From Brotaphodocola catenula (lineage in GTDB: Bacteria; Bacillota; Clostridia; Lachnospirales; Lachnospiraceae), in assembly GCA_020686985.1 (NCBI GenBank), contig JAJEPU010000001.1, forward strand, positions 124,001-188,000: a DNA stretch of 64,000 nt, in the 5' to 3' direction. The notes under the pieces are model-generated. The model searched no databases, was not told the origin of the DNA, and saw only the letters and a program-made list of their open reading frames with translations. Positions 14,549 through 60,099 of the stretch are shown here, in pieces; within the stretch, counting starts at the first letter, position 1; every line of letters begins with the position of its first letter. The position numbers and the translations under genes are program-made.

Positions 14549-14629
14549 GTTACTGTTCAGAAGTAGGCATTTTTGGAACCGAAAGTGCCGTAAAATTCCA
14601 TTACTGGGCATGTGCGCGTGAACAGTAAC
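14549..14629 (+). repeat. GTTACTG/CAGTAAC palindromic repeat, copy A (81 bp)
   Basis: Perfect 11-bp terminal inverted repeats GTTACTGTTCA (14549-14559) and TGAACAGTAAC (14619-14629). Inside is the family's GGCA...TGCC hairpin (AGTAGGCATTTTT, then GAAAGTGCCG). The next 40 bp also resemble the inner part of the 132-bp form, so this copy may be rearranged. Confidence 0.8.
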
Positions 14630-14678
14630 GATGGAGATTTTGCCAGTTTGAAGTGCGTAGGATTGGTAGAATCTGTTT

Positions 14679-14806
14679 TATATGATAGGAAATTGCGTCC
14701 TATCATACAAAAACGCTCCGCGAGGATGCGCACTCGGCTCAGGGGAAGATGGTTGCCGAAGCAACCGCGCCTCGGCGCGAGAATGTGCCAGGGCACATTC
14801 TTTTTT
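14679..14806 (+). repeat. TATGATAGGA hairpin repeat, copy 1, ending in a terminator-like hairpin
   Basis: A perfect 10-bp inverted repeat TATGATAGGA/TCCTATCATA (14681-14707) is followed by a GC-rich segment and by GAATGTGCC/GGCACATTC plus TTTTTT (14781-14806). The second copy (22041-22111) shares both hairpins but lacks most of the middle. The terminator-like end lies only 30 bp before the oppA-like start codon. Confidence 0.75.
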
Positions 14807-14836
14807 ATGCAATAGAAAGGAAGGAGAATATTTGCA

Positions 14837-16777
14837 ATGAGAAAAAACACAGCACGTCTGGCAGCACTTGCGCTCGCATCAGCCATGGTACTGACTGCAT
14901 GCGGAGGAAGCTCCAGCCAGAATACCGGCAGTAATGACGGCGGAAACACAGATGCAGGAAATACATCTGCGATCAAGGATCTGGTAACTTATGAGGCTCC
15001 GATTCGTGAGCAGGAGGGATTCTTTATCCTGAACACGGAGAAGGCAGCAGATCTGAATGTACTGTGTAATATGTACTCTCCGCTTCTGGAGGTTGACGCT
15101 AACGGACAGCTTCGCGCAGCTGTTGCGAAAGAGTGGGGCACCGAGGACGGTGGTCTTACCTGGACCTTCAAACTCAGAGACGACGTAAAATGGGTAGACA
15201 TCAATGGAAATGAGAAAGCTGACTGTACTGCACAGGACTGGATCACCGCAATGGAGTGGATTTTAAACTTCCACAAGAACGGTGGAAACAACGCCTCTAT
15301 GCCTCTGGCACTGATTGAAGGCGCTGAGGACTACTACAACTACACGAAGGATCTCCCGGAGGCAGAGGCAAAGGCTCTCGACACTTCCAAGATGCTTGAG
15401 ATGGTTGGCATTGAGGCACCGGATGACTACACCCTGGTTTACCACTGCACAACGAACGCTCCGTATTTCGATACCGTGATGACTTCTGCATGCATGTACC
15501 CGATCTCTCAGGGTCTGATCGATGAGCTCGGCGTTGACGGCATGATCGGTATGACGAATGAGAACATGTGGTACAACGGACCGTACTTCGAGACCACCTT
15601 CACGATGAACAACGAGAAGATTCTCACGAAGAACGATTCTTACTGGGATAAGGATGCAACCCTGTTCGATACCGTTACGATCCGTATGGTCGATGCAACC
15701 CAGCAGTATCAGCTGTGGCAGAACGGCGAGCTTGACAACATCTCCCTGTCTGAGGCAGATTTGAGAACGATCTACGATGACGAGAACAACAAAGACCACG
15801 CATATCTGGCTGAGACCCGCCCGAAGAAGTTCTCCTATCAGATGCATTTGAACTATGCAAAGAACAACGAGGATGGAACTCCGGATACCAACTGGAATAC
15901 CGCAGTTGCAAACGAGGCATTCCGTCTTTCCCTGTACTATGGTCTGGACTTAACGAAGTACTGGTCAAGATCCAACTTCATCAACCCGCTCCACAACGAG
16001 AATGTGTGCTACACGATGAAGGGTCTGTTAAAGTACTCTGATGGAAGAGACTACACCGATAAGGTTCAGGAGCTTCTTGGCATGTCGGAGTCTGACGGTG
16101 AGCACATGAGAAGATACGACAAGGAGAAGGCTGAGGCTTACAAGAAGCAGGCAATCGAAGAGCTGACTGCTCAGGGCGTTACCTTCCCGATCCAGATCGA
16201 CTACTACATCGTTTCCGGTGACCAGAATGCTCTGGATACCCAGACGATCATGAAGCAGATCTTCTCTGAGTGCCTTGGCGATGACTATGTAAACTTCAAC
16301 ATCAAGACCTTCGTATCTAGCGTGACGAAAGAGGTTATTCAGCCGGGTATCCACTCCTACTACATCAGTGGATGGGGCGCAGACTACGGTGATCCGGCAA
16401 ACTTCCTCGATCAGGAGCGTTATGGCTATGACGGCGCTTACTACTCCAAGAACTACTCCAGAATCAATCAGGCAACTGATGAGAATCTGATTGCGACCTA
16501 CAAGGAGTTCTCTGACATGGTAGAGAAGGCTGGCGAGATCTGTGACGATATGGATCAGCGTTACGATGCATTTGCTGAGGCTGAGGCATATATGCTTGAG
16601 CATGCTCTGACGATCCCGGTTCAGTACGAGACCCAGTGGCAGTTGACGAAGGTCAATGATTACACCAAGATGAATGCGATGTACGGCGCCCAGAACTATA
16701 CTTACAAGAATTGGGAGACTTCTACCACTCCGTATACAACTGAGCAGTATGAGGCTTTTGCAGCGGAGGCGAAGTAA
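14837..16777 (+). CDS. Oligopeptide ABC transporter substrate-binding lipoprotein
   Basis: A 646-residue extracellular solute-binding protein of family 5 (OppA/DppA-like). The N-terminus is a lipoprotein signal with lipobox LTAC, cysteine at residue 22, then a Ser/Gly/Asn linker. The family signature appears around LNVLCNMYSPLLEVDANGQL and the late GWGADYGDPANFL. It captures peptides for the permeases encoded next. AAGGAAGGAG precedes the ATG. At 646 residues it is longer than typical OppA. Ligand specificity cannot be read from sequence. Confidence 0.93.
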   Translation: MRKNTARLAALALASAMVLTACGGSSSQNTGSNDGGNTDAGNTSAIKDLVTYEAPIREQEGFFILNTEKAADLNVLCNMYSPLLEVDANGQLRAAVAKEWGTEDGGLTWTFKLRDDVKWVDINGNEKADCTAQDWITAMEWILNFHKNGGNNASMPLALIEGAEDYYNYTKDLPEAEAKALDTSKMLEMVGIEAPDDYTLVYHCTTNAPYFDTVMTSACMYPISQGLIDELGVDGMIGMTNENMWYNGPYFETTFTMNNEKILTKNDSYWDKDATLFDTVTIRMVDATQQYQLWQNGELDNISLSEADLRTIYDDENNKDHAYLAETRPKKFSYQMHLNYAKNNEDGTPDTNWNTAVANEAFRLSLYYGLDLTKYWSRSNFINPLHNENVCYTMKGLLKYSDGRDYTDKVQELLGMSESDGEHMRRYDKEKAEAYKKQAIEELTAQGVTFPIQIDYYIVSGDQNALDTQTIMKQIFSECLGDDYVNFNIKTFVSSVTKEVIQPGIHSYYISGWGADYGDPANFLDQERYGYDGAYYSKNYSRINQATDENLIATYKEFSDMVEKAGEICDDMDQRYDAFAEAEAYMLEHALTIPVQYETQWQLTKVNDYTKMNAMYGAQNYTYKNWETSTTPYTTEQYEAFAAEAK

Positions 16778-16783
16778 TAAGAT

Positions 16784-17734
16784 ATGACAAAATACACAAT
16801 CAAACGACTGTTACAGTCACTTGTAACAGTCCTGGTTGTGGCAACGATTGTTTTCCTGCTCATGCGGATGCTTCCGACGGACTACTACTTTACAGAGGAC
16901 CAGGTCATGAAGCTCACGGAGGAACAGAAGAACGATCAGTTGTTAGCAGCCGGACTGTTAGATCCGATCGGACAGCAGTTGCTCCGCTTTTACGGACAGC
17001 TTCTGCATTTTGACTTCGGTGTTTCCCGTCGAATTCAGACGGGTGCTCCGGTTCTGAAGGTAATCGGAACGAAATTTGCGATTTCCATGCGTCTCGGATG
17101 TACCGCGCTGGTTATCGCCCTGATCATTGGTGTGTTCTTAGGCGTGATGCAGGCCCGTCACAAGGACCGCATTTTCGACCACATTGGAACGGCATACACC
17201 ATTTTTGTAAACGCAGTTCCGCCACTGGTATCCTACTCCCTCGTGCTTGCGTTCGGTGCTCATGTGCTGAACCTGCCGACGCTCTATTCCACGAGAAATG
17301 TTGGAAAATCCAGTATTCTGCCCATCGTCTGTCTCGCTCTGGCATCTATCGCTCACTATGCGCTGTGGACCAGACGTTACATGGTTGATGAGCTGAACAA
17401 AGATTATATCAAGCTCGCCCGCATCAAGGGCATGGCATTTAAGGACATCATGGTAAAGCATGTGCTCAAGAATGCATTTGTACCTCTGGTACAGTATATC
17501 CCGGCATCGTTCCTGATGACGATCAGTGGTTCTCTTCTGGCAGAGCGTTTCTTCTCTGTTCCGGGAATGGGCCCGCTTCTGACTGATGCCATCACCCGTT
17601 ATGATTTGAATGTGGTTCAGACCCTGGTAATCATTTATGCGGCTCTGGGAGTTCTGGGCGTGTTCCTCGGTGATGTGCTGATGATGCTTCTCGACCCGAG
17701 AATCAAACTGGCGGACAAAGGAGGCAGTCGATGA
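16784..17734 (+). CDS. Oligopeptide ABC transporter permease, OppB type
   Basis: A 316-residue inner-membrane permease. The N-terminus (YTIKRLLQSLVTVLVVATIVF) is the typical OppB first helix, and the binding-protein-dependent transport domain follows with about six helices. The EAA-like loop reads DYIKLARIKGMAFKDIMVKHVLKNA. It starts 7 bp after the binding-protein gene and overlaps the next permease gene by four bases. Confidence 0.94.
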   Translation: MTKYTIKRLLQSLVTVLVVATIVFLLMRMLPTDYYFTEDQVMKLTEEQKNDQLLAAGLLDPIGQQLLRFYGQLLHFDFGVSRRIQTGAPVLKVIGTKFAISMRLGCTALVIALIIGVFLGVMQARHKDRIFDHIGTAYTIFVNAVPPLVSYSLVLAFGAHVLNLPTLYSTRNVGKSSILPIVCLALASIAHYALWTRRYMVDELNKDYIKLARIKGMAFKDIMVKHVLKNAFVPLVQYIPASFLMTISGSLLAERFFSVPGMGPLLTDAITRYDLNVVQTLVIIYAALGVLGVFLGDVLMMLLDPRIKLADKGGSR

Positions 17735-18684
17735 GCGAACAGAATCAGAAACAGAATCAGAATGAGAATCCGAGCAATGGATTTGAATTTGTGGAGTATT
17801 CTCCGGAGGCAGCAGAGCGCATCGGATACTCCGATTATTCTTATTGGAAATCCGTATTTCAGAATTTCCTCAAGAAGAAATCGGCAGTGTTCATGGCGTT
17901 TGTGTTCTTTGCCCTTGTTATTTTTTCCTTTATTGCGCTGAAAATCGGAAAGTACGATTATTCTTCCGCGCAGATCATGTCAGATGCATCTCTGGCATTC
18001 ACGTCCCCGAACGGAGAGTTCTGGTTCGGAACGGATAACCTCGGACGTGACTACTGGTGTCAGGTATGGTACGCAGCTCAGATCTCGATTAAGCTGGCAC
18101 TGATTGTTGCACTCGGAGAGTGCGTGCTCGGTGTGACGATCGGATGTATCTGGGGCTATGTGCGCAGTCTTGACCGCATCATGACAGAGATTTACAACGT
18201 CATCAACAACATCCCGACGATCATCTACATGACGCTCGCAGCTCTGCTTTTCGGACAGAGCTTCCGCAACATGGCGATCGCAATGATCACGGTCGGCTGG
18301 CTTGTGATGGCGAGAAACGTCAGAAACCTCGTGCTGATGTACCGCGACCGCGAGTACAACCTGGCATCGAGATGTCTCGGAACACCGGTATGGCGAATTC
18401 TTGTGAAGAATATTTTCCCGTATCTGATCAGCGTGATCATCCTGCGTCTGGCTCTGTCGATCCCGCAGACGATCGCTCTGGAGTCCACTCTGTCCTACCT
18501 TGGACTCGGACTCGACGTGAATACGCCGTCCCTCGGCATTCTCTTGAGAAATGCCCGCAACTACTTCTTGCAGTATCCGTACCTGCTGATTTTCCCGGCG
18601 GTCATCGTATCCCTGATTACCATCACTTTCTATCTGGTGGGAAATGCATTCTCGGATGCGGCAGATCCTAGAAACCATGTATAA
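17731..18684 (+). CDS. Oligopeptide ABC transporter permease, OppC type
   Basis: A 317-residue permease with an Asn/Gln-rich hydrophilic N-terminus, the OppC_N segment with the first helix at about residues 48-70, the FGTDNLGRDYWCQVWYAAQIS signature typical of OppC/DppC, and the transport domain (LASRCLGTPVWRILVKNIFP). It pairs with the upstream OppB-like subunit to form the channel. Its ATG overlaps the preceding stop. Confidence 0.94.
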   Translation: MSEQNQKQNQNENPSNGFEFVEYSPEAAERIGYSDYSYWKSVFQNFLKKKSAVFMAFVFFALVIFSFIALKIGKYDYSSAQIMSDASLAFTSPNGEFWFGTDNLGRDYWCQVWYAAQISIKLALIVALGECVLGVTIGCIWGYVRSLDRIMTEIYNVINNIPTIIYMTLAALLFGQSFRNMAIAMITVGWLVMARNVRNLVLMYRDREYNLASRCLGTPVWRILVKNIFPYLISVIILRLALSIPQTIALESTLSYLGLGLDVNTPSLGILLRNARNYFLQYPYLLIFPAVIVSLITITFYLVGNAFSDAADPRNHV

Positions 18685-18726
18685 GAAAATCAAATACTAA
18701 TTTGGAAAAATTTGGAGGAAACGGAT

Positions 18727-19788
18727 ATGGCAAATGCTAATATGGAAAAAGCGCCGATTCTGTCCGCCAGAGACGTTGAGATTCAGTTCAGCCTGCGTGG
18801 CAAGAAACTGAAGGCGATCCGCAAGTGCTCTCTCGATCTTTATCAGGGAGAGACGCTCGCGATCGTGGGCGAGTCTGGATCAGGCAAATCGGTATTTACA
18901 AAGTCCTTTCTCGGCATGCTTGATGCGAATGGAAGCATTGTCGGTGGAAGCATCCAGTATGACGGAAAGGATCTTGCAACTTACAAGACAGAGAAGGATT
19001 GGATGACGATCCGCGGAAAGAAGATCTCGATGGTCATGCAGGATCCGATGACTTCGTTGAACCCGTTAAAGAAGATCGGTCGCCAGATTGAGGAGAGTAT
19101 CGAGCTCAATCAGGGAATCAAGGGACCGGAGGCAAAGGCGAAGGCACTCGATATGCTCCGTAAGGTTGGAATCCCGGATGCTGAGCGCCGTTATAACCAG
19201 TATCCGCACGAGTTTTCCGGCGGTATGCGCCAGCGAGTTGTCATCGCGATCGCGGTTGCCTGCCACCCGGAGATCCTGATCTGTGACGAGCCGACGACGG
19301 CTCTCGACGTGACGATTCAGGCTCAGATTCTTGATCTGATTCGCAGTCTTCAGAAAGAGCTGAACATGACGGTTGTCTACATCACTCATGATCTCGGAGT
19401 TGTGGCAAATGTCGCTGATCGCGTTGCAGTTATGTACGCAGGACAGATTGTCGAGTACGGTATGGTCGAGGAGATTTTCTACGACGCATGGCATCCGTAC
19501 ACCTGGGCTTTGCTGTCTGCACTTCCACAGCTCGGCGTCAAGGGTGAGGCACTTCCGACAATCGACGGAACTCCGCCAAACCTGTTTAACGAGGTTAAGG
19601 GCGATGCGTTCGCACCAAGAAACAAGCGTGCACTCGCAATCGACTTTGTCGAGGAACCACCGTTCTTTGAGGTGTCTCCGACACACAAGGCAAAGACCTG
19701 GTATCTCGATCCGAGAGCGCCGAAGATCGAACAGCCGGATTCCATCCGCAGACTGCGCGAGAAGATGAAGTTAAAGGAAAGGGGGTAA
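18727..19788 (+). CDS. Oligopeptide ABC transporter ATPase, OppD type
   Basis: A 353-residue ATPase. Walker [10 protein letters not shown]-loop [11 protein letters not shown], signature SGGMRQR and Walker [13 protein letters not shown] are all present, followed by the oligopeptide-transporter C-terminal region ([11 protein letters not shown]). The ATG at 18727 is preferred over an upstream TTG because the GGAGGA lies just before it. Confidence 0.94.
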
Positions 19789-19794
19789 GATGCG

Positions 19795-20736
19795 GTGGCT
19801 GAGAAAGAGAAATTAATTGAAATCAAAGATTTGCAGATTACCTTCGGAAGCGGAAAGAAGAAATTCGTCGCTGTCGACCATGTAAATTTTGATATTTATA
19901 AGGGAGAGACGTTCTCACTCGTAGGAGAGTCCGGTTCCGGAAAGACGACGATCGGAAGAGCGATCACTCGAATCAATCCGGTATCTGCCGGTGAGATTCT
20001 CTACCGCGGAAAGCGGATCAGCGGAAAGATCTCAAAAGACCTTGACCGTGAGGTCGTAAAGACCTGCCAGATGATTTTCCAAGACCCGATGGCATCATTG
20101 AATGAGCGTGCGAAGGTCGACTACATCATCTCCGAGGGTCTGATCAATTTCCACATGTACAAGGACGAGGAAGACCGCAAGCGCAAGGTTGCAGAGGCAC
20201 TTCGCGAGGTTGGACTTCTGCCGGAGTTCGCTTCCCGCTTCCCGCACGAGTTCTCGGGTGGTCAGCGTCAGCGTATCGGAATTGCGCGTGCGCTGATCAT
20301 GGAGCCGGAGTTCGTCGTAGCCGATGAGCCGATTTCCGCCCTCGACGTCTCGATCCGTGCACAGGTACTGAACCTGCTGAACAACTTAAAGAAGAGCCGT
20401 GGACTGACGTATCTGTTCATCGCTCATGATCTCTCTGTTGTTCGCTTTATCTCTGACCGAATCGCGGTTATTCACAAGGGTCGTATCGTGGAGCTTGCTG
20501 AGGCTGAGGAGCTTTTCCTCCATCCGCTTCACCCGTACACGAAGGCACTTTTGTCCGCAGTTCCGATTCCTGATCCGGAGCTTGAGAAGAACAAGAAACT
20601 TCTCGTCTACGATCCGTCAATCCATGATTACAGCGTCGACGGACCGGTCTGGGAGGAGATTCTTCCGGGACATTTCGTTTACGGAAATCAGAAGGAGCTC
20701 GACGGTTACCGAAAGGAAATTGAGGAATCCAGATAA
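19795..20736 (+). CDS. Oligopeptide ABC transporter ATPase, OppF type
   Basis: A 313-residue second ATPase of the same importer. Walker [34 protein letters not shown] and Walker [11 protein letters not shown] are intact, followed by [19 protein letters not shown]. The start is GTG at 19795, with GGGGG about 10 bases upstream. The stop overlaps the next ATG (TAATGA), suggesting coupling with the small membrane protein that follows. Confidence 0.93.
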
Positions 20737-21230: not shown

Positions 21231-21258
21231 GATGAGTTCACAAAATGTTCACAAAAAA

Positions 21259-21301
21259 TTAGCACTCACCTCTTGACATTGCTAATAATGCGTGCTATAT
21301 T
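21259..21301 (+). promoter_or_regulatory. hsp20 promoter overlapped by a CIRCE operator
   Basis: The left CIRCE arm TTAGCACTC (21259-21267), nine bases, then CATTGCTAA (21277-21285; 7 of 9 match GAGTGCTAA). TTGACA (21273-21278), a 17-bp spacer and TATATT (21296-21301) form the promoter, so bound HrcA would cover the -35 box. A 5' UTR of about 165 nt with several small hairpins follows. Confidence 0.8.
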
Positions 21302-21473
21302 ACAGATAGAACAAAGGAGAGGGAAACAGAGAGGAAGATCAGGAAGCCCGAGAAGATCGGAGCGAGAGGTTTTCTGAAAGGTTTCCGAAGTATCCAGAGT
21401 TCGGAGGATGTCGAAAGGCATCCGAGACAAACTTGCTGATTAAGATTTTAGATAGATAAAGGAGAGATGACTT

Positions 21474-21932: not shown

Positions 21933-22002
21933 TCGATCCAATCCGTTCCTGTTGGTGCAATGCATGAATGGGAACAGGAAATCAAGATAAGAGTGTGAGA
22001 GG

Positions 22003-22042
22003 GACAGTCGGTTCCGGGAAATCCGGGGCGGCTGTCTTTTTA
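22003..22042 (+). terminator. Terminator after hsp20
   Basis: GACAGTCG pairs with CGGCTGTC, followed by TTTTT. Confidence 0.75.
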
Positions 22043-22111
22043 TATGATAGGAAATTGCGTCCTATCATATAAAAAAAGCTCCGCCAGAATGCGCCAAGGC
22101 ACATTCTTTTT
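22041..22111 (+). repeat. TATGATAGGA hairpin repeat, copy 2, with terminator-like hairpin
   Basis: TATGATAGGA/TCCTATCATA (22043-22069) is the same perfect palindrome as at 14681, including the loop AATTGCG. It is followed by GCTCCGC and by GAATGCGCC/GGCACATTC with a T-run (22087-22111), which insulates the clpB promoter from hsp20 transcription. Confidence 0.8.
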
Positions 22112-22121
22112 ACAAAAAAAA

Positions 22122-22164
22122 TTAGCACTCACATCTTGACAGTGCTAACAACATGTGTTATAGT
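22122..22164 (+). promoter_or_regulatory. clpB promoter overlapped by a CIRCE operator
   Basis: TTAGCACTC (22122-22130), nine bases, then CAGTGCTAA (22140-22148; 8 of 9 match). TTGACA (22136-22141), a 17-bp spacer and TATAGT (22159-22164) form the promoter. The layout is base for base the same as upstream of hsp20. Confidence 0.88.
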
Positions 22165-22298
22165 ACTGACAGAACAAAGAGACAAAGAAAAAAGATAAAT
22201 AAAGAGAAAGCAACAAAAGAGTAAACAGACAACAGACATATTTCTGATTATGGAATGTGTAAACAATAACAGAAGCACCGAGGAATGGAGGCGAGTGT

Positions 22299-30122: not shown

Positions 30123-30265
30123 TATACTGAAGATTAAAACAGTGCTGAATTTCAAAGGGAAAACGTTCTTTCAAAATAGATTTTTTAAAGGGATGAGAAC
30201 GGATTTTCAGGAAAGAATCTGTCAATGATGGGGATGTGATTGATTTGAAATTCAGTAGAAAAGAC

Positions 30266-30321
30266 GTTGCTGTACACGGGGAGATATTTTCTGAACTGAA
30301 AATACTGTATGATACAGTAAC
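30266..30321 (+). repeat. GTTACTG/CAGTAAC palindromic repeat, short copy in the plsC leader (56 bp)
   Basis: Ends GTTGCTGTA and TACAGTAAC are inverted repeats, and the core TTTTCTGAACTGAAAAT is identical to the copies at 45091 and 59968. It lies 25 bp before the plsC start and would form a hairpin in the 5' UTR. Confidence 0.75.
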
Positions 30322-30346
30322 GAAAAACAAAGAGAAAGGATTTATT

Positions 30347-31093
30347 ATGATACGATTAATTCTGGTTGCATTTTTTCTCATCGCATTTTTGATTCTGAGT
30401 GCGATTCCGCTTCTGATCGGAGAGTACCTGATCTACAAAAATGATGAGAAAAAACAGCAGGAATATTGTCTGAAAGTGGCTCAGGCGATGTTTCGTATGC
30501 TTCTGCGTCTGACCGGCAGTAAAATTACGGTCAGGGGAAGGGAGAGAATCCCGGAGGGGGCGGTGCTCTATGTGGGAAATCACCGCAGTTATTTTGATAT
30601 TCTCGTTGGATATACGATGGTTCCGGGACTGACCGGATTTGTCGCAAAGAAGGAGATGGAGACCTGGCCGATCCTTTCGGACTGGATGCGCAATGTAAAT
30701 TGTCTGTTTTTGAATCGTAAAGACATCAAAGAGGGATTGAAAACGATTCTCGAGGGAATTGAGAAAGTAAAATCCGGGGTTTCGATTTGGATCTTCCCGG
30801 AGGGAACCCGTTGTCAGGAGAAAGATCCACTCAAGATGCTTCCGTTTAAGGAGGGAAGCATGAAGATTGCAGAGAAGTCCGGTTGCCCGGTGATTCCAGT
30901 TGCAATTACCGGAACGAGAGATATCTGGGAGAATCATCTGCCGTTTATCCGTCCGTCAAAGATAACGATTGAATTTGGCGAACCGATTTACATAAAAGAA
31001 CTGCCGTTGGCAGATCGGAAACATCTTGGAGCGCTGGCGCAGAACCGCATTCTTGAGATGCTGGAAAAGGAACAGAAGATACGGAGGGCATAA
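30347..31093 (+). CDS. plsC: 1-acyl-sn-glycerol-3-phosphate acyltransferase
   Basis: A 248-residue membrane enzyme that acylates lysophosphatidic acid to phosphatidic acid. An N-terminal hydrophobic helix (MIRLILVAFFLIAFLILSAI) anchors it. The acyltransferase motifs NHRSYFD (NHxxxxD) and FPEGTR are intact, with KEGSMKIAEKSGCPVIPVAI following. The ATG at 30347 was chosen over a GTG 37 codons upstream because the extra residues would be encoded by the palindromic repeat and AGAAAGGA precedes this ATG. pheA follows after two bases. Confidence 0.92.
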   Translation: MIRLILVAFFLIAFLILSAIPLLIGEYLIYKNDEKKQQEYCLKVAQAMFRMLLRLTGSKITVRGRERIPEGAVLYVGNHRSYFDILVGYTMVPGLTGFVAKKEMETWPILSDWMRNVNCLFLNRKDIKEGLKTILEGIEKVKSGVSIWIFPEGTRCQEKDPLKMLPFKEGSMKIAEKSGCPVIPVAITGTRDIWENHLPFIRPSKITIEFGEPIYIKELPLADRKHLGALAQNRILEMLEKEQKIRRA

Positions 31094-44359: not shown

Positions 44360-44507
44360 AGTTGGAACTTTTTTATTGTATCATAAAAGAGGGGGAATTT
44401 CAACCGAGAAAAAACGAGAAAACTGTTTGGAAAACAAGAATTTTGGTGTATACTGAATCAGACATAAGAAATCGACATAGGAAATGAAATTTTGGAGGCG
44501 ATTTGCG

Positions 44508-45107
44508 ATGGAAAGAGTATCGAAACTGACGCGGGAAGAGGCTCTGGCACTTCTTCAGAAATACAACAAGGAACCATTTCACATTCTGCACGGTCTGACG
44601 GTGGAAGGTGTGATGAGATGGTATTCAGAGAAGCTCGGCTATGGCGATGAGGCAGAGTACTGGGGAATCACCGGACTGCTTCACGATGTGGATTTTGAGC
44701 AGTATCCGGAGCAGCACTGCATCAAGGCACCGGAACTTCTGCGCGAGGCAGGAGTGGGGGAGGATATGATTACTTCGATCTGCTCTCATGGATATGGAAT
44801 TTGCTGTGAGGTGGAGCCGAAACATGAGATGGAGAAGGTGTTGTTTGCATCGGATGAGCTGACTGGTCTGATCGGTGCAACGGCGAAAATGCGCCCGTCA
44901 AAGAGTACGAAAGACATGGAAGTTTCCAGCCTGAAAAAGAAGTTCAAGGATAAGAAATTTGCAGCGGGATGCTCCCGTGATGTGATTCGGACCGGCGCAG
45001 AGCGTCTGGGATGGGAACTTGATCAGCTCTTTGCTGATACGATTGAGGCAATGCGTTCCTGCGAAGATTCTGTAAATGAAGAAATGGAGCGTTACTGTAC
45101 ACGGTAG
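44508..45107 (+). CDS. HD-domain (HDIG) hydrolase
   Basis: A 199-residue protein. The conserved His of FHILHGLTVEGVMRWY and the metal pair in GLLHDVDFEQYPEQH mark an HD phosphohydrolase fold, with CSHGYG later in the domain. The ATG at 44508 follows TTGGAGG at a better distance than an upstream ATG. The last codons and the TAG stop (end CTR, 45099-45107) come from the left end of a palindromic repeat, so the original C-terminus may have been altered by its insertion. Confidence 0.82.
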   Translation: MERVSKLTREEALALLQKYNKEPFHILHGLTVEGVMRWYSEKLGYGDEAEYWGITGLLHDVDFEQYPEQHCIKAPELLREAGVGEDMITSICSHGYGICCEVEPKHEMEKVLFASDELTGLIGATAKMRPSKSTKDMEVSSLKKKFKDKKFAAGCSRDVIRTGAERLGWELDQLFADTIEAMRSCEDSVNEEMERYCTR

Positions 45108-45222
45108 GCATTTTCTGAACTGAAAATGCCGTATGATACAGTGATGGTAGCAGATTTTGCCGATTTGGAATGCGAAGCATCGGCAAAATCCGTTGCTGTT
45201 TGCGCAAAGCGTGAACAGTAAC
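45091..45222 (+). repeat. GTTACTG/CAGTAAC palindromic repeat, long copy B (132 bp)
   Basis: Ends GTTACTGTACA (45091-45101) and TGAACAGTAAC (45212-45222). Inside are hairpin GGCATTTT/AAAATGCC (45113-45130) and a 12-bp stem GATTTTGCCGAT/ATCGGCAAAATC flanked by AGCA/TGCT. It overlaps the end of the HD gene. The copy at 59968 has the same length and nearly the same sequence. Confidence 0.88.
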
Positions 45223-45268
45223 GATGGAGCGTCCGGGTCTGAAGTAATCGGATCAGCAATGTCTTGTC

Positions 45269-45496: not shown

Positions 45497-45624
45497 GCCA
45501 GTCTCCTCTTGAAAGCCGTGTTGGAATCAGAATATGCTGGATCATGGAGGAATGTGCGGGTCATACTCTGTTCCTGTTTATAAAAATAAAAAAGTAGGCA
45601 GGAATCAAACAAGACGAAAAGTTT

Positions 45625-45655
45625 GTTACTGTTTGTGCAATGCGTGGATAGTAAC
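45625..45655 (+). repeat. Solo 31-bp fragment of the palindromic repeat
   Basis: GTTACTGTTT...GATAGTAAC matches the last 31 bp of long copy B (GTTGCTGTTTGCGCAAAGCG then TGAACAGTAAC) with about six differences and keeps the terminal inverted repeat. Confidence 0.55.
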
Positions 45656-47285: not shown

Positions 47286-48020
47286 ATAATAAGAGAAAAA
47301 AAGAAAGATTGATTAAGAAACAGGAGAAAGAAGTTTAGAATTTGCCAGCTGTCATCTCTGAGCGTTTTTTTGTGACTCAGAGTGGATGGCGGGCAGGTTC
47401 TGCCTCTTTATCTCATATGATATAGTTTTTGCAACGCATGAACGATAACCGGGGCATGAGTGGCAGTGGATTTTTTGACAGAGAAAAACAGTTGCAATCT
47501 GCCGGTTCCTGTGCTATCATATCTGTTGCGTATCCGAAAATCTTGAGGATCTGAACGTCAGAGATTGTCTGAATCCGTTATCATTCATAATTGGGAGTTT
47601 CATTATTTTATTATTTAATAAAAGTTTGAAGCAGTTTGGGAGCAGTGTGTTTTGCATGCAGAAAAAGCAAATCGAATGTCCGCAAAGGGATGTTGGTCTG
47701 TGAAAAATCAGGTTAGCGTCAAGATAAATGCGGAAGATGAGAGGTGTGCGATGTCTGGCATGGCAAATGGATAGATGGGTAAGATGTATTTGAGTGAGTT
47801 TTTGCAGTAAAAAGATTTAGATTTAATTATTAAGAAATCAGTCTGTGTAAAATCATGACCGGAAAACGGTTATCTGAAAATCAAAAAATCTGAGTGTTCA
47901 TAACGGTTCAGTACTTTAGTTGAGTTATAAGAAGTTCAAGTCGACGCAAGCATCGACTTGGCGCGTGATTTTGTTATATAGGAAGTTTCGTGTCAGGAAA
48001 AATTCTGAAGTGGCACCGCA

Positions 48021-53629: not shown

Positions 53630-53718
53630 AAACGAAAAGCATAAATGTAAAATACAAATAATAAAATCCAAACAAAAACCCAAAACAAAAACAGGGGAAA
53701 AGCCTAATAAAATAAAGG

Positions 53719-53747
53719 TTGACGGATTACTTTTCGTGTGATATAGT
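53719..53747 (+). promoter_or_regulatory. Promoter of rpmG-secE-nusG
   Basis: TTGACG (53719-53724), a 17-bp spacer and TATAGT (53742-53747), 125 bp before rpmG. Confidence 0.75.
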
Positions 53748-53871
53748 AATGTGGCGAATGGAAGAGCTTAGGTCTTTTTTTTATGCTCAAATTTTGCCGG
53801 AGTCCGGCGAAGCAGAGAGCAGGGAAAGAAGAGACTGAAAAACAACGAAAATTTAAGTGGAGGTGGAAGTC

Positions 53872-54021
53872 GTGCGCACAAAGATTACACTGGCATGTAC
53901 GGTTTGCAAACAACGTAACTACAACATGACGAAGGATAAGAAGACCCATCCGGACCGCATGGAAACTAAGAAGTATTGTAGATTCTGCAAGACTCATACT
54001 TTGCACAAAGAGACCAAATAA
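53872..54021 (+). CDS. rpmG: 50S ribosomal protein L33
   Basis: A 49-residue protein with GTG start and GGAGG 7 bases upstream. The zinc cysteines are intact: [11 protein letters not shown] and [13 protein letters not shown], so this is the zinc-binding form. It precedes secE by 12 bp, the standard Firmicute order. It is shorter than 60 residues but matches the family's length. Confidence 0.95.
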
Positions 54022-54033
54022 GGAGTGTGAACT

Positions 54034-54237
54034 ATGGGAGAGGCTGCAGGAACTGAAAAAGCTCCGGTCAAGAGTTTTTTCAAGGGTTTTAAAGCTGAGT
54101 TCAAGAAGATCGTATGGCCCGACCAGGAGACGGTTGTGAAACAGACGGTTTCGGTGACAGTAATCAGCATCTTGCTGGGCGCGGTTATCGCAATCCTTGA
54201 TTTCATCATCAAATGGGGCCTCAGCTTCATTATTTAA
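54034..54237 (+). CDS. secE: Preprotein translocase subunit SecE
   Basis: A 67-residue membrane protein that clamps SecY. The amphipathic helix FFKGFKAEFKKIVWP is followed by one transmembrane helix (about 40-62). The single-helix form is usual in Gram-positive bacteria. It lies between rpmG and nusG. Confidence 0.95.
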   Translation: MGEAAGTEKAPVKSFFKGFKAEFKKIVWPDQETVVKQTVSVTVISILLGAVIAILDFIIKWGLSFII

Positions 54238-54256
54238 CTAAGGCGAGGGTGATAAG

Positions 54257-54772
54257 ATGTCAGAAGCAAAGTGGTATGTAGTTCATACCTATTCAGGCTA
54301 CGAGAACAAGGTAAAAGTTGACATTGAGAAGACGATCGAGAACCGTAACCTTCAGGATCAGATCCTGGAAGTGTCCGTCCCGATGCTGGAAGTAGCAGAG
54401 CTCAAAAACGGCGTAGAGAAGCTGGCAGACAAGAAAATGTTTCCAGGCTATGTGCTGATTCACATGATCATGAACGATGATACATGGTATGTGGTTCGCA
54501 ATACGCGCGGTGTAACTGGCTTTGTAGGACCGGGTTCCAAACCTGTACCGTTAAGCGATGCAGAGATGGAGAGCCTTGGATTCAACAAGACAGAGCTTGC
54601 AGTAGACTTCGAGATTGGCGATATGGTGGCAGTAACTGCCGGCGCCTGGAAGGATACAATCGGTGCGATCAAGTCGATCAATGAGAGCAAGAAAACCCTT
54701 ACGATCAGCGTCGAAATGTTCGGCCGGGAGACTCCGGTTGAACTGAACTTCACTGAAGTGAAGAAAATGTAA
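54257..54772 (+). CDS. nusG: Transcription termination/antitermination protein NusG
   Basis: A 171-residue factor that binds RNA polymerase and links it to ribosomes or Rho. The NGN domain starts AKWYVVHTYSGYENKV and has FPGYVLIHM; the C-terminal KOW domain has GDMVAVTAGAWKDTIGAIKS. Operon position between secE and rplK is conserved. Confidence 0.97.
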   Translation: MSEAKWYVVHTYSGYENKVKVDIEKTIENRNLQDQILEVSVPMLEVAELKNGVEKLADKKMFPGYVLIHMIMNDDTWYVVRNTRGVTGFVGPGSKPVPLSDAEMESLGFNKTELAVDFEIGDMVAVTAGAWKDTIGAIKSINESKKTLTISVEMFGRETPVELNFTEVKKM

Positions 54773-54802
54773 CAGCAAACTAGGCTGGCATTGTGCCGGC
54801 TG

Positions 54803-54830
54803 GTGGGAGGGAAATCCCCGACAATACCAC
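54803..54830 (+). promoter_or_regulatory. Predicted L1-binding mRNA site before rplK
   Basis: A 28-nt element: outer stem GTGG/CCAC, inner AGGG-AAAT-CCCC hairpin, asymmetric GACAATA side. It resembles the L1-binding leader of L11-L1 operons and is repeated exactly before rplA. Confidence 0.8.
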
Positions 54831-54850
54831 AATATTAGGAGGTCATTATC

Positions 54851-55276
54851 ATGGCAAAGAAAGTAACTGGCTACATCAAATTACAGATTCCGGCAGGCAA
54901 GGCTACTCCGGCTCCGCCAGTAGGTCCTGCACTGGGTCAGCACGGCGTTAACATCGTGCAGTTTACCAAGGAGTTCAACGCAAGAACCGCAGACAAGGGC
55001 GATCTGATCATCCCGGTTGTTATCACGGTTTATGCAGATAGAAGCTTCAGCTTCATCACCAAGACTCCGCCGGCTGCAGTTCTGTTAAAGAAGGCCTGCA
55101 AGATCAAATCCGGTTCCGCAACCCCGAACAAGACGAAGGTAGCTACCATCTCCAAGGAAGATCTGCAGAAGATCGCAGAGACCAAGATGCCTGACTTAAA
55201 CGCAGCAAGCCTCGAGGCAGCAATGAGCATGATCGCAGGTACTGCAAGAAGCATGGGTATCACTGTTGAGGAGTAA
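54851..55276 (+). CDS. rplK: 50S ribosomal protein L11
   Basis: A 141-residue ribosomal protein of the GTPase-associated centre. The N-terminal [20 protein letters not shown] and [14 protein letters not shown] are universal L11 signatures; the C-terminal rRNA-binding domain ends in [17 protein letters not shown] precedes the ATG. Confidence 0.98.
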
Positions 55277-55290
55277 GTCGATTTAGAAAC

Positions 55291-55318
55291 GTGGGAGGGA
55301 AATCCCCGACAATACCAC
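55291..55318 (+). promoter_or_regulatory. Second predicted L1-binding mRNA site, before rplA
   Basis: Identical over all 28 bases to the element at 54803-54830, ending 3 bp before the RBS of rplA. L1 bound here would block its own translation start directly. Confidence 0.8.
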
Positions 55319-55334
55319 TAGGAGGTTATTTATA

Positions 55335-56030
55335 ATGAAACATGGAAAAAGATACGCGGAAGCAGCAAAAGCAGTAGACCGTTCCGTATTATATGATGCA
55401 GCAGACGCAATTGCACTCGTAAAGAAGAATGCATCTGCAAAATTTGATGAGACCGTTGAGGCTCATTTCAGAACCGGATGTGACGGACGTCACGCAGATC
55501 AGCAGATCCGTGGTGCAGTAGTTCTGCCGCACGGAACCGGTAAAGTTACCAGAATCCTTGTATTCGCTAAGGGTGTTAAGGCTGATGAGGCTCAGGCAGC
55601 TGGTGCAGATTACGTTGGAGCTGAGGAGCTTATTCCGAAGATCCAGAACGAGGGATGGCTGGATTTTGACGTTGTTGTAGCTACTCCGGATATGATGGGC
55701 GTTGTTGGTCGTCTGGGTCGTGTACTTGGACCGAAGGGCTTAATGCCGAACCCGAAGGCTGGTACCGTTACTATGGACGTAACCAAGGCTATCAACGAGA
55801 TCAAAGCTGGTAAGATTGAGTACAGACTTGATAAGACCAATATTATCCACGTGCCGGTGGGTAAGGCTTCTTTCACAGAGGAGCAGTTAGCGGACAACTT
55901 CCAGACGCTTATGGATGCAATCAACAAGGCTAAGCCGGCTACTCTGAAGGGCGCATACATCAAGAGCGCAACCCTGACCTCTACCATGGGCCCGGGCGTT
56001 AAGCTGAATGTTGTAAAGCTGGTTCAGTAA
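55335..56030 (+). CDS. rplA: 50S ribosomal protein L1
   Basis: A 231-residue protein of the ribosomal L1 stalk and repressor of its own operon. Signatures [35 protein letters not shown] and KAGTVTMDV are present. AGGAGG lies before the ATG. Confidence 0.98.
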
Positions 56031-56046
56031 TAGCAGTAAAAAAAGA

Positions 56047-56075
56047 TTGACAATCCAGATATAGTATGTTATTAT
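56047..56075 (+). promoter_or_regulatory. Promoter of rplJ-rplL
   Basis: TTGACA (56047-56052), a 17-bp spacer and TATTAT (56070-56075), just after rplA. Confidence 0.75.
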
Positions 56076-56084
56076 ACACAAGTA

Positions 56085-56200
56085 TTGACTGCCGAAGACA
56101 GCAGGTGCCGTAAGGCATAAGGTGAAAACGCCTGCCGAGGAACGTACAATTCTTTAGATTGAATTTGTAGAGCCTCTCTGTCTTGACGGAGAGGCTTTTT
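56085..56200 (+). promoter_or_regulatory. Ribosomal protein L10 leader with attenuator
   Basis: The segment GACTGCCGAAGACAGCAGG, AAGGCATAAGG and CCTGCCGAGGAACGTACAAT matches the conserved L10 leader, to which L10(L12)4 binds. It is followed by an intrinsic terminator (AGCCTCTC/GAGAGGCT plus T-run, 56171-56200) 38 bp before rplJ, so excess L10 would lower read-through. Confidence 0.9.
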
Positions 56201-56238
56201 CCGTGCAGTCTCCAAAATATTATAGGAGGAAGACATTC

Positions 56239-56730
56239 ATGGCAAAGGTAGAGTTAAAGCAGCCGGTAGTGGCTGAGATCTCTGAATTGCTGAACGGTGC
56301 TGCATCCGCAGTAGTGGTTGACTATCGTGGACTGACCGTTGCTCAGGATACTGAGCTTCGTAAAGCCCTGAGACAGGCCGGCGTTTCCTACAAGGTATAC
56401 AAGAATACCCTGATCAAGCGCGCTGCTGAAGGCACTGAGTTCGCAGCTCTGGATCCCAACCTTGAGGGACCGACCGCAATCGCAGTATCTAAGGACGATG
56501 CAACCGCACCGGCAAGAGTTCTGGCTGAGTTCGCAAAGAAGGCTGACAAGCTGGAAATCAAGGGCGGCGTTATCGAGGGTACTTACTACGATGCAAAGGG
56601 AATGCAGGTTATCGCAACCATCCCGTCCAGAGAGGTTCTGCTTGGCAAGCTGCTTGGCAGCATCCAGTCTCCAATCACCAACCTGGCTCGCGTCCTGAAT
56701 CAGATCGCAGAGAAGCAGGCAGAGGCTTAA
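56239..56730 (+). CDS. rplJ: 50S ribosomal protein L10
   Basis: A 163-residue base of the L7/L12 stalk. It begins MAKVELKQPVVAEI and has VVVDYRGLTVAQDTELRKAL and YKVYKNTLIKRA. The ATG at 56239 follows ATAGGAGG; an in-frame ATG 12 codons upstream is inside the attenuator spacer and is rejected. Confidence 0.98.
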   Translation: MAKVELKQPVVAEISELLNGAASAVVVDYRGLTVAQDTELRKALRQAGVSYKVYKNTLIKRAAEGTEFAALDPNLEGPTAIAVSKDDATAPARVLAEFAKKADKLEIKGGVIEGTYYDAKGMQVIATIPSREVLLGKLLGSIQSPITNLARVLNQIAEKQAEA

Positions 56731-56820
56731 TTCGAGGATTTATTCCTCAACTGAGACAGTGTGCATAGCATGCTGACGAAATTCAACAAAACCCAATTAA
56801 AATTAATGGAGGAAAATAAA

Positions 56821-57195
56821 ATGGCAAAGTTAACCACCGCAGAGTTTATCGACGCTATCAAAGAGTTATCCGTATTAGAGCTGAACGAGCTGGTAAAGGC
56901 TTGTGAGGAAGAGTTCGGCGTATCTGCAGCAGCAGGCGTTGTTGTAGCAGCAGCAGGTGCTGGTGAGGCAGCAGCTGAGGAGAAGACCGAGTTCGACGTA
57001 GAGCTGACCGAGGTTGGCGCTAACAAGGTTAAGGTTATCAAGGTTGTTCGTGAAGTAACCGGTCTGGGCCTGAAGGAAGCTAAGGACGTTGTTGACGGCG
57101 CACCGAAGGTTCTGAAAGAGGGCGCTTCTAAGGAAGAGGCTGAGGATATCAAGACCAAGCTTGAGGCTGAGGGAGCAAAGGTTACCCTGAAGTAA
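56821..57195 (+). CDS. rplL: 50S ribosomal protein L7/L12
   Basis: A 124-residue acidic stalk protein that recruits translation factors. N-terminal dimer domain ([20 protein letters not shown]), Ala-rich hinge ([15 protein letters not shown]), C-terminal domain with [25 protein letters not shown] precedes the ATG at 56821. In most Firmicutes rpoB follows, but here the operon ends at a terminator and csp follows. Confidence 0.98.
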
Positions 57196-57232
57196 TTCAG
57201 AGAATCTTAAAACTCGTGATGATATCACAGAT

Positions 57233-57263
57233 GGACTGCGGATTTGTTCCGCAGTCCGTTTTT
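57233..57263 (+). terminator. Terminator after rplL
   Basis: GGACTGCGG/CCGCAGTCC with a 7-base loop and TTTTT. Confidence 0.92.
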
Positions 57264-57264
57264 A

Positions 57265-57327
57265 GTTACTGGGCACGTTATCTTACGGCACTTTCGGTTC
57301 AAAAAGTGCCTACCTCTAAACAGTAAC
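57265..57327 (-). repeat. GTTACTG/CAGTAAC palindromic repeat, copy D (63 bp, reverse orientation)
   Basis: Bounded by GTTACTG (57265) and CAGTAAC (57321-57327). Its reverse complement follows copy A closely: GGTAGGCA, then GAACCGAAAGTGCCGTAA. It begins one base after the rplL terminator. Confidence 0.75.
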
Positions 57328-57353
57328 CGTTTTTATCTTCTTTCTGAAACTGC

Positions 57354-57382
57354 TTGACAGAAACCTTGTTGGGTGTTAAACT
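57354..57382 (+). promoter_or_regulatory. Promoter of the cold-shock gene
   Basis: TTGACA (57354-57359), a 17-bp spacer and TAAACT (57377-57382). Confidence 0.7.
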
Positions 57383-57411
57383 GAATTCGTATTTTGATAT
57401 GAGCTTTTGAT

Positions 57412-57472
57412 TCACATATTTTTGTAAGTCATGAAGTGCATTTCATGATTCACAAAAATATGTGATTTTTTT
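57412..57472 (+). terminator. Long terminator-like hairpin in the csp leader
   Basis: TCACATATTTTTGT...TCATGAA pairs with TTTCATGA...CACAAAAATATGTGA, over 20 bp with few mismatches, and is followed by TTTTTTT. It lies between the promoter and the csp RBS, so it could act as a conditional terminator or as an RNA switch for cold induction. Confidence 0.7.
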
Positions 57473-57517
57473 GTTTCATGAGAAATACAAATATTTATCT
57501 ATATAGGAGGCAGTACT

Positions 57518-57724
57518 ATGAATAAGGGTACCGTTAAGTGGTTCAACGCAACGAAGGGATATGGTTTCATCACCAACGATGAGTCCGGTGAGGAAGTATT
57601 CGTACATTTCTCCGGTATCGTAGCTGATGGCTACAAGACTCTGGAAGATGGCCAGAAGGTTACCTTCGATACCGCTGAGGGCAATCGTGGTCTGCAGGCT
57701 GTAAACGTACACGTTGTAGCTTAA
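57518..57724 (+). CDS. Cold-shock protein, CspA family
   Basis: A 68-residue single-strand RNA/DNA chaperone. [18 protein letters not shown] contains RNP1 (KGYGFI) and EVFVHFSGI contains RNP2. TAGGAGG precedes the ATG. Its 5' UTR of about 130 nt contains a terminator-like hairpin. Confidence 0.96.
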
Positions 57725-57749
57725 TCAGAGATTTCTGCAAGAGCTGAGA

Positions 57750-57797
57750 GGACCGTGCACCGGATGAGTGATCGTTCGATGCATGGTCTTCTTTTTT
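57750..57797 (+). terminator. Terminator after csp
   Basis: GACCGTGCA pairs with TGCATGGTC (one G-T), then a T-run. Confidence 0.8.
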
Positions 57798-57898
57798 GTA
57801 TGATAGGAAAAATCAGGAAAAGTTTCGTTTATAGGAAAGAAACCGGCGCATACCTTATAGAGATATAGAGAATTTGAAAAATCGGAGATGCAGGTCGG

Positions 57899-58642
57899 GT
57901 GAAGATAAGATGGGCAAAAAGACTGCTGTTTGCGATTGTTTTGTTCGACGGACTGTTATTTGGCACTGCGATTGCAGTCGTCCAAACTGAGATTCAACCC
58001 CAAATGTCCATTCGGGAGAATTCTCCCGATTCTCATAAAGAAAAGATCGTTCAGGCGGGGATTGGAGACGAAGGAATTTGGGAGACACAGAAACTGCTTG
58101 CGCTGACGTTTGATGACGGACCCTCCCTGGAGTGCACCGGGAGACTGTTGGACGGCTTAAAAAAGCGCGGGATTCACGCGACGTTTTTTCTTATGGGAGA
58201 AAATATTCCAGGCAAGGAGGAACTCGTCCTGCGCATGAAGACGGAGGGGCATCTGATTGCCAATCACGGCTACCGCCATGTCCAGATGACACATGAGGGC
58301 GAGGATGCAGTCGCAGAGTCTGTGGAGAAGGCGCAGGAGATGATTGAGGCGATTACCGGGGAGAAGCCCGAGTTTCTCAGACCACCTTACGGGGATTGGA
58401 ATGAAAAGCTCGCGGAGCGCTGTGATCTGACAACGGTGTTCTGGAATGTGGATTCTCTCGACTGGAAGCTCAGAAATGTGGAAAAAATCGTGAGACGGGT
58501 GAAAAAACAGGTTAAAAACGGAGATATCATCCTGATGCACGATATTTTTCCGGAGTCCGTGGAGGCATCGCTGGAACTTGCCGATCAGCTGAGTGCGGAG
58601 GGCTATGCATTTGTGACGGTGGATGAATTGTTGATTGACTGA
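57899..58642 (+). CDS. Polysaccharide deacetylase (NodB family), membrane-anchored
   Basis: A 247-residue enzyme. An N-terminal helix (about 6-26) anchors it outside the membrane. The NodB domain has LALTFDDGPS with the catalytic Asp and metal Asp, NHGYRHVQ (metal His) and LRPPYGDWN. It probably removes acetyl groups from peptidoglycan or chitin-like chains; PdaB-type proteins act in sporulation, but the subtype is unclear. GTG start at 57899 with AGGTCGGG upstream; rarA starts 15 bp after its stop. Confidence 0.88.
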   Translation: MKIRWAKRLLFAIVLFDGLLFGTAIAVVQTEIQPQMSIRENSPDSHKEKIVQAGIGDEGIWETQKLLALTFDDGPSLECTGRLLDGLKKRGIHATFFLMGENIPGKEELVLRMKTEGHLIANHGYRHVQMTHEGEDAVAESVEKAQEMIEAITGEKPEFLRPPYGDWNEKLAERCDLTTVFWNVDSLDWKLRNVEKIVRRVKKQVKNGDIILMHDIFPESVEASLELADQLSAEGYAFVTVDELLID

Positions 58643-58657
58643 AAAAGGGGCATTGGA

Positions 58658-59977
58658 ATGGATTTATTTGATTATATGAGAAGCTCGACGCAGGAGAAGG
58701 AGTCTCCTCTGGCATCGAGAATGAGACCGACAACGCTCGATGAGGTTGTGGGTCAGAAGCATATTATTGGAAAAGACAAACTGCTTTACCGTGCGATCAA
58801 GGCGGATCAGCTGGGCTCTCTGATTTTTTACGGACCGCCGGGAACAGGAAAGACGACGCTCGCAAAGGTGATTGCAAACACGACAAAGGCAGAATTCAAG
58901 CAGATCAATGCGACGGTCGCAGGCAAGAAAGACATGGAGGAAGTTGTCTGCGAGGCAAAGGACGCACTCGGCATGTATGGACGAAAGACGATCCTTTTTG
59001 TGGATGAGATTCACCGTTTCAACAAGAGCCAGCAGGACTATCTTCTTCCGTATGTCGAGGACGGAACTCTGATTTTGATCGGTGCGACGACGGAGAATCC
59101 GTATTTTGAGGTTAACAGTGCACTTCTCTCTCGCTCCCGCATTTTTGAGCTCAAGGCGCTTGAGCGGGACGATGTGAAAGAGCTGATTTACCGTGCTGTA
59201 AACGATGTGCAGAAGGGAATGGGAAGCTACCGTGCGGTGATCGATGAAACAGCAGTTGATTTCCTTGCGGACGTCTCGGGCGGGGACGCGAGATCGGCGT
59301 TGAATGCAGTCGAGCTTGGTATCATGACGACAGAGCGAGACCCGGCGGATGGTCTGATTCACTTCACACTTGAGGTGGCGCAGGAGTGCATCCAGAAGCG
59401 TGCAGTCAACTATGACAAGGACGGGGACAATCACTATGATACGATCTCCGCATTTATTAAGAGCATGAGAGGTTCCGATCCGGATGCAACGGTCTATTAT
59501 CTTGCGCGGATGCTCTATGCGGGCGAGGACATCAAGTTCATTGCGCGCAGAATCATGATCTGTGCGTCGGAGGATGTCGGAAATGCCGATCCGCAGGCAC
59601 TCACGGTCGCAGTCAGCGCATCCCAGGCAGTCGAGCGCCTTGGAATGCCGGAGGCGAGAATTGTGCTCTCTCAGGCTGCACTCTATGTGGCAACGGCGCC
59701 GAAGAGCAATTCCGCGATCTGTGCGATTGATGAGGCGATGGAGGCTGTGAAAAATCAGCACGCAATGCCGGTTCCGGTTCACTTGAGGGACAGACATTAC
59801 AAGGGAGCTGAGGCGCTCGGTCATGGGGATGGATATAAGTATGCACATGACTATCCGAACCATTACGTCAGACAGCAGTATCTTCCGGATGGCATGGAGG
59901 GACAGACGTTTTATTGCCCGTCTGAAAACGGTTATGAGCGCCAGATTCAGGAACATATGAAGTTTTTATTACAGTAA
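58658..59977 (+). CDS. rarA: Replication-associated recombination protein RarA (MgsA)
   Basis: A 439-residue AAA+ ATPase acting at stalled forks. [17 protein letters not shown], Walker [10 protein letters not shown], Walker [17 protein letters not shown] and sensor [12 protein letters not shown] are intact, and the C-terminal MgsA domain contains [19 protein letters not shown]. The TAA stop (59975-59977) and the final residues lie in the left arm of a palindromic repeat. Confidence 0.96.
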
Positions 59978-60099
59978 CGGGTAGGCATTTTCTGAACTGA
60001 AAATGCCGTATGATAAAGTGGAAGTAGCAGATTTTGCCGATTTGGAATGCGAAGTATCGGCAAAATCCGTTGCTGTTTGTAGGGTGCGTGAACAGTAAC
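59968..60099 (+). repeat. GTTACTG/CAGTAAC palindromic repeat, long copy C (132 bp)
   Basis: Same length as copy B and closely similar: identical TAGGCATTTTCTGAACTGAA core, GATTTTGCCGAT/ATCGGCAAAATC stem, right end TGAACAGTAAC (60089-60099). The left arm reads ATTACAGTAAC. The remaining 60100-60400 holds the rho promoter and leader only. Confidence 0.88.

Follow-up and report, generated by a model that had tools for sequence, protein, structure and literature searches.

The window analysed here, a stretch of 64,000 nt, contains members of a dispersed family of palindromic elements whose identification as a MITE family is well supported. These elements have terminal inverted repeats, lie between target-site duplications of a fixed length (8 bp), are short (<500 bp) and non-coding, and occur in many dispersed, mostly intergenic copies. 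A reading of the window from its sequence only had offered a non-autonomous element that was either MITE-like or REP-like; the first description fits the features just named, while the second is weaker because of the duplications. In the account that we favor, at a probability of roughly 0.9, the family would be moved by a transposase made elsewhere, deletions would give rise to its short forms, and the fold of its interior would be kept.

The sequence-only reading had described six copies with shared GTTACTG/CAGTAAC ends and a hairpin. The described sequences are present at all six places, and all six are also placed by a covariance model of the long form (R1, an alignment of 21 copies), with E values from 9e-37 to 1.7e-4 (Table 1); a second model, R2, was built from an alignment of 18 of the 31-bp units. 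The window contains the word CAGTAAC 13 times, compared with a shuffle mean of 3.0, and 13 occurrences were reached in 0 of 100 shuffles. Both 132-bp copies were confirmed, copy E with a degenerate left end (ATTACAG). The piece at 45625-45655, which had been taken for a mere fragment, is instead a recurring 31-bp unit, 8 others of which stand alone in this genome; its flanks, when read, show no target duplication left.

Table 1. Elements of the family in the 64,000-nt window, with their parts and flanks.
Feature	Position	Strand	Model match	Details
Copy A, 81 bp	14549..14629	+	R1 14549-14629, E 1.5e-12	left end, hairpin 1 and right-end unit; without hairpin 2
Flanks of copy A	14541-14548; 14630-14637			GATGGAAA; GATGGAGA; 7/8 alike
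Possible hairpin-2 remnant directly 3' of copy A, weak	14635..14673	+	R1 20.0 bits, E 0.0043	
Diverged stand-alone 31-bp end unit, weak	21945..21975	+	R2 E 6.5e-6	just past ORF end 21932
Copy C, 56 bp	30266..30321	+	R1 30266-30405	right end follows left end and hairpin 1, junction at ACAGT; flanks 5/8 alike, no clear target duplication
Copy B, 132-bp long form	45091..45222	+	R1 45091-45222, E 9e-37, but copy is in R1 training set	
Flanks of copy B	45083-45090; 45223-45230			AATGGAGC; GATGGAGC; 7/8 alike
Hairpin 1 of copy B	45107..45130	+		9-bp stem, 6-nt loop; coordinates counted by hand
Hairpin 2 of copy B	45153..45190	+		12-bp stem by eye, 11 alignment pairs; coordinates counted by hand
Hairpin 3 of copy B (right-end unit), 31 bp	45192..45222	+	R2 E 4.1e-15	
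Stand-alone 31-bp unit	45625..45655	+	R1 45570-45655; R2 E 1.2e-12, but unit is in R2 training set	
Diverged stand-alone 31-bp end unit, weak	47419..47449	+	R2 E 6e-4	
Copy D, 63-bp short form	57265..57327	-	R1 57235-57327	perfect 8-bp duplication CGTTTTTA at 57257-57264 and 57328-57335
Copy E, 132-bp long form	59968..60099	+	R1 59968-60099, E 9.9e-31	degenerate left end
Flanks of copy E	59960-59967; 60100-60107			AAGTTTTT; GAGTTTTT; 7/8 alike

Judged by mechanical ORFs, the copies in the window lie between genes or at gene ends, as had been proposed. The stop codon of ORF 44484-45107, which has no Pfam match, falls inside copy B, and that of ORF 58658-59977, which encodes a RarA/MgsA-like AAA ATPase, inside copy E. 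The only ORF that copy A overlaps (14557-14976) is reverse and unsupported. Copy C lies within the 5' part of mechanical ORF 30236-31093; since the acyltransferase domain of this ORF starts only at residue 96, the copy is probably located upstream of the true start. (It should be noted that the window holds other repeats as well. At 14676-14713 and 22038-22075, A-rich sequence and GCTCCGC come after a hairpin containing GGAAATTGCGTCCT, with related pieces at 57790, 14776, and 22082; a similar module adjoins an element end in another genome, G149, part of it is also present in C. fessum (locus L038), and it looks like another dispersed, perhaps terminator-like, repeat. Two 67-bp copies with TTAGCACTC, 84% alike, at 21250-21316 and 22113-22179, are ones that we take, from the motif, to be probably CIRCE-type heat-shock operators.)

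The search of the whole genome that the earlier reading had suggested, by nucleotide and by covariance model, finds the family dispersed. BLAST of the 3.32-Mb draft gave 60 matches, of which 40 have E values no higher than 3.4e-11, although two of these 40 places, each at the start of a contig, may represent a single copy split in half; the other 20 are the second hairpin, matched on the opposite strand within copies already counted. Among the 150 first-look candidates scored per genome, R1 has 104 matches at E up to 0.1 in this genome and 138 in Clostridium fessum SNUG30386. The two are taken as different species because two stretches compared between them align at 65-70% identity.

Evidence for transposition comes from the flanks. 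The scan for duplications used fetched loci with ends within one mismatch, giving 145 de-duplicated elements from 17 genomes and one viral contig. Direct repeats that agree at 7 or more of 8 bases flank 101 of these 145 copies, which were chosen by matching these ends or the long form and are thus not a random sample; re-pairing the left and right flanks gives an expectation of 0.84. The proportion is an underestimate, because 8 of the 145, counted as solo units in the scan, are right ends that do not stand alone but belong to longer copies. The length of the repeat is fixed: among 121 long copies, perfect repeats are exactly 8 bp in 70, 7 bp in 2, and 9 bp in 1. At least one copy with a 7-of-8 match is found in 17 of the 18 sources, and at least one perfect repeat in 14. 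The duplicated 8-mers are A+T-rich and show no clear motif. An uninterrupted relative of one site could also be identified, the one spanning match obtained from 141 queries: an element in genome G013 corresponds to an uninterrupted site in G149 in which the duplicated stretch is present in single copy, with 6 of the 8 duplicated bases alike and flanks that are about 70% identical.

The duplications are unevenly distributed. Those of 7/8 or better are seen around 10 of 32 copies in this genome versus 50 of 61 in C. fessum, and 22 of the 44 copies without one belong to this genome; on this comparison the family looks older here and fresher in C. fessum. Thirteen of the first 15 C. fessum copies read have a perfect 8-bp duplication, and 53 oriented 133-bp copies there have a median pairwise identity of 0.955, with 15 identical pairs. 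So many near-identical copies point to recent movement in that species.

The positions of the elements are also nonrandom. Among long copies with clear duplications (a set of 92, two left out for short flanks), only 12 of 90 lie inside an ORF when the flanks are rejoined, and 7 of those 12 are within 5% of an ORF end, compared with 87% of random places; the ORFs here are mechanical rather than curated genes. Of 51 elements between co-directional genes, 35 have the same orientation as the genes (p 0.011), and convergent gene pairs account for 2 of 68, figures in which neither the copies nor the tests are independent.

Elements in the scan range from 29 to 147 bp, with long forms of 119-147 bp, and the two copies checked contain no open frame of more than 44 codons. 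The short forms look like deletion derivatives of the long form. In particular, copy C would have arisen when the long form lost the sequence between two ACAGT words; for copies A and D we infer other internal deletions. The 31-bp unit at the right end is an imperfect palindrome in which both ends stand back to back. Sixteen such units were scored as solo in the scan, but 8 are not alone, 7 being the right ends of longer copies that are damaged or cut off, and 1 lying in a composite (L056). The remaining 8 (L041, L044-L046, L051-L054) count as alone, and 3 of them have 7-8 of 8 flanking bases duplicated; one, L045, has hairpin-1-like remnants on both sides.

Related elements with other ends or sizes were encountered as well. 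C. fessum also has elements of 50-79 bp with ends GTAACTGTTCA, and all five of those found have a duplication of at least 7/8; in G139, which belongs to another genus, a 110-bp element whose right end is degenerate lies between two copies of ACTAATAA. Tandem pairs of elements that share one 8-bp target copy between them are present in C. fessum (L194:3328-3601, 274 bp) and in G254 (L179:2501-2798, 298 bp). At L166 of G260, two elements of different end type lie side by side (2304-2490 and 2501-2646), the first being 187 bp long, with ends GTAACAG and the 8-bp duplication TGAGTATT. Scans for pairs of ends also gave a 142-bp relative. G149 has a 233-bp element (L232:16916-17148) with ends GTAACTATTCAG and the perfect 8-bp duplication GAATCAAT, and a 502-bp stretch (contig C1, about 2302076-2302577) with ends GGTTCTTTCTGAA and the 8-bp repeat AACGTTTT; this stretch, whose ends we presume to be ISL3-like, is perhaps a separate MITE or a remnant.

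The family extends well beyond one genus. A pattern of the two ends (GTTACTGTWCA, 97-127 bases, TGAACAGTAAC), which encloses 119-149 bp, is present in 16 of 395 genomes (this one included) and 12 of 303 genera, a lower bound since the pattern overlooks genomes such as G023, whose ends are variant; the reversed control gave 0. All 16 belong to the window's own family, which we take to be Lachnospiraceae in GTDB; NCBI places C. fessum under Clostridiaceae. BLAST of the 132-bp copy against 23 other genomes of the genus gave a single 29-bp match, which was discarded as it reads as coding sequence (L032 of G015). R1 has matches in 3 of 27 genomes (the 23 plus four others); it missed G016 and G022, in both of which the end pattern found elements. 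One viral contig carries an intact element. A C. fessum copy has no match in the plasmids and phages searched, the viral contigs gave none to a hairpin-2 or a 31-bp pattern, and one viral-contig pattern match (L132) was taken as chance. GTTACTGTTCA forms the left end of 17 of 21 representatives, and TGAACAGTAAC the right end of 19. The elements read show two interior layouts: type I, with three hairpins, in most of them, and type II, with a CCGCGAGG...CCCGAG module, in G183, G149, and G134.

Within type I, the positions of the hairpins are kept while the letters of their stems turn over. In the 21-copy alignment, the three helices are paired in 96.8% of cells and 9 pairs show a change in both bases (0 of 500 shuffles); the right-end unit alone is 95.8% paired (0 of 500 shuffles), with 4 pairs changed on both sides, a number matched by 37 of 500 shuffles. 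Because related sequences can beat such shuffles without structure, the cross-species set carries more weight. There, in 21 type I representatives, the best stem within bases 9-62 starts at base 12-18 in every case. In the 16 distinct arm pairs of hairpin 1, 138 of 144 cells are Watson-Crick, a value that is high partly by construction, as the arms were selected as stems; the informative observations are that arms swapped between elements pair at only 0.43 and that 8 of the 9 positions carry three or four kinds of pair, with a mean 5'-arm identity of 0.42. Hairpins 2 and 3 were read by looser standards, and the automatic stem deviates in some elements (for example, G260_L166, G012_L135, and G187_L168). 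By eye, hairpin 2 contains an inner mini-hairpin, the core of which is apparently inverted in this genome and in C. fessum.

Such pairing might be produced without any function of the fold, through template switching during replication that copies one arm from the other. The arms match within subfamilies and differ between them, and the mismatches in hairpins 1 and 2 are without strand bias (G-U versus A-C, 7 versus 8 and 15 versus 11, respectively), both as arm copying would have it. Arm copying alone, however, does not explain why the start and loop size of hairpin 1, or the mini-hairpin of hairpin 2 as seen by eye, are kept across genera, and as the full explanation it is worth serious thought while falling well short of an even chance.

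If instead the hairpins formed a regulatory or attenuator-like RNA, selected by the host and spread as a mobile element, then the plus-strand RNA should show G-U pairs above A-C mismatches. Over all three hairpins this is seen (39 versus 19, p 0.012), and the covariation of the hairpins, the placement of elements close to genes, and their orientation bias in co-directional pairs agree with it. Yet the excess stems from hairpin 3 (17 versus 0), where it can be explained by common descent; for hairpins 1 and 2 (22 versus 19), an RNA function argued from wobble asymmetry is unsupported. Presence in 16 of 395 genomes is patchy for a host-selected RNA, and no Rfam family matches the elements at its curated cut-off in the window and 18 loci. 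Part of the 233-bp G149 relative does weakly match the Clostridiales-1 RNA model (RF01699), at 24.5 bits, half the cut-off of 48. This RNA has no match over the window or locus L003, none at the cut-off in the 18 loci, and none at the cut-off in 140 kb of G149, so as a parent it is a weak lead only; in the part of PMC2864571 drawn on here it occupies one table line. An RNA function of the elements is possible, but as the driver of the family it is rather improbable.

The target duplications weigh against palindromes of the REP/REPIN type, copied by a RAYT (Y1 HUH) transposase. Units of 31 bp that stand alone, hairpins, and an intergenic position are what that origin would lead one to expect. 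However, the 101 copies with 8-bp duplications have them flush with the conserved ends, and to our knowledge HUH enzymes make no target duplications and REPs are without them; in addition, the GTAG found beside hairpin 1 in this genome and in C. fessum is not shared by the representatives in general. Such an origin is very unlikely. A recent local duplication confined to the window, to which the 89% likeness of copies B and E, 15 kb apart, might have pointed, and which the sequence-only reading had named as the finding that would undo its proposal, can be dismissed, as copies occur throughout this genome and in C. fessum and other species.

For the MITE family, the following course of events is proposed. 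A transposase made elsewhere would recognize the ends GTTACTGTTCA/TGAACAGTAAC and move the element, cutting the target with an 8-base stagger; the resulting duplications are observed, and the enzyme and its DDE chemistry are what they would imply. Insertions that persist are mostly intergenic, and this observed bias could arise through target choice or through selection. Internal deletions would then yield short forms, some of them still mobile, as their sequences and the duplications around short copies suggest, and the 31-bp right-end unit may itself be a mobile minimum, given its duplications at 3 of the 8 lone units. Because the hairpins persist through sequence turnover, the fold would be maintained either by selection or by arm-to-arm copying. 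A bolder version can be put forward only tentatively, with the odds against it: a mobile class spanning the whole bacterial family that inherits its fold rather than its letters, with hairpins needed for transposition or for host tolerance, an undescribed transposase that recognizes GTTACTGTTCA and cuts with an 8-base stagger, and a right-end palindrome that is itself a 31-bp minimal transposon.

Duplications of 8 bp are made by ISL3 and IS1595. A source element was sought in several ways. Pairs of these ends with a spacing of >300 bp and a perfect 8-bp repeat were absent from 1.45 Mb of loci (partly overlapping, with some N) and from a further 0.4 Mb of G149. Pfam models of the IS66 and IS256 transposases have no match in the genomes of this organism or C. 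fessum, and the IS240/IS6 model has none in this genome; as these are drafts, such absence is not proof. Neither the end pattern with known copies excluded, applied to C. fessum, nor the scans of fetched loci for distant pairs of ends turned up an IS-sized element with these ends; pairs with other ends occur up to 4 kb apart. An ORF adjoining an end in G139 (L066) was not recognized as a transposase, as judged without a domain search. The partner could be hidden in 20 small C. fessum contigs that read as N.

In this group of Clostridia the elements account for a large class of repeats; two species each have more than 100 model matches in their genome. Many adjoin genes, and two in the window hold a gene's stop codon. 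The near-identical C. fessum copies with their fresh duplications make transposition there testable, and the turnover of stems under a kept layout provides a natural test for distinguishing folded DNA, RNA, and plain arm copying as the force that shapes small transposons. The 11-letter end, searched for in 5.39 million open papers (subscription papers lie outside this coverage), led to no title on such an element, and a search of open papers for MITEs with Lachnospiraceae gave no title on the subject. As far as the open literature was searched, the breadth of the family, its kept hairpin layout, and its missing mobilizer seem to be new.

Among known systems, REP/REPIN sequences, in the parts of PMC3116915 and PMC3733652 used here, are likewise short extragenic palindromes with single and composite forms, whereas the 8-bp target duplications and conserved ends belong to the present elements. 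Pneumococcal BOX elements, as far as the relevant part of PMC3049150 describes them, share a modular build, a structure if transcribed, terminal repeats, target duplications, lone modules, and a parasitic look; by that description BOX varies from 67 to 637 bp with module number, whereas here the long form has its three hairpins in a fixed order, with a palindromic right-end unit. There is a close likeness to prokaryotic MITEs in general, which the portion of PMC10969869 consulted describes as mostly intergenic elements of <500 bp with terminal inverted repeats, many copies, stable stem-loops, truncated derivatives, and flanking duplications in younger copies; size, ends, copy number, duplications, mostly intergenic position, stem-loops, and derivatives are all common to the elements described here. 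What sets the present family apart from MITEs in general is that the searches made turned up no source IS for it, and that, across genera, its stem sequences turn over under a hairpin layout that stays the same.
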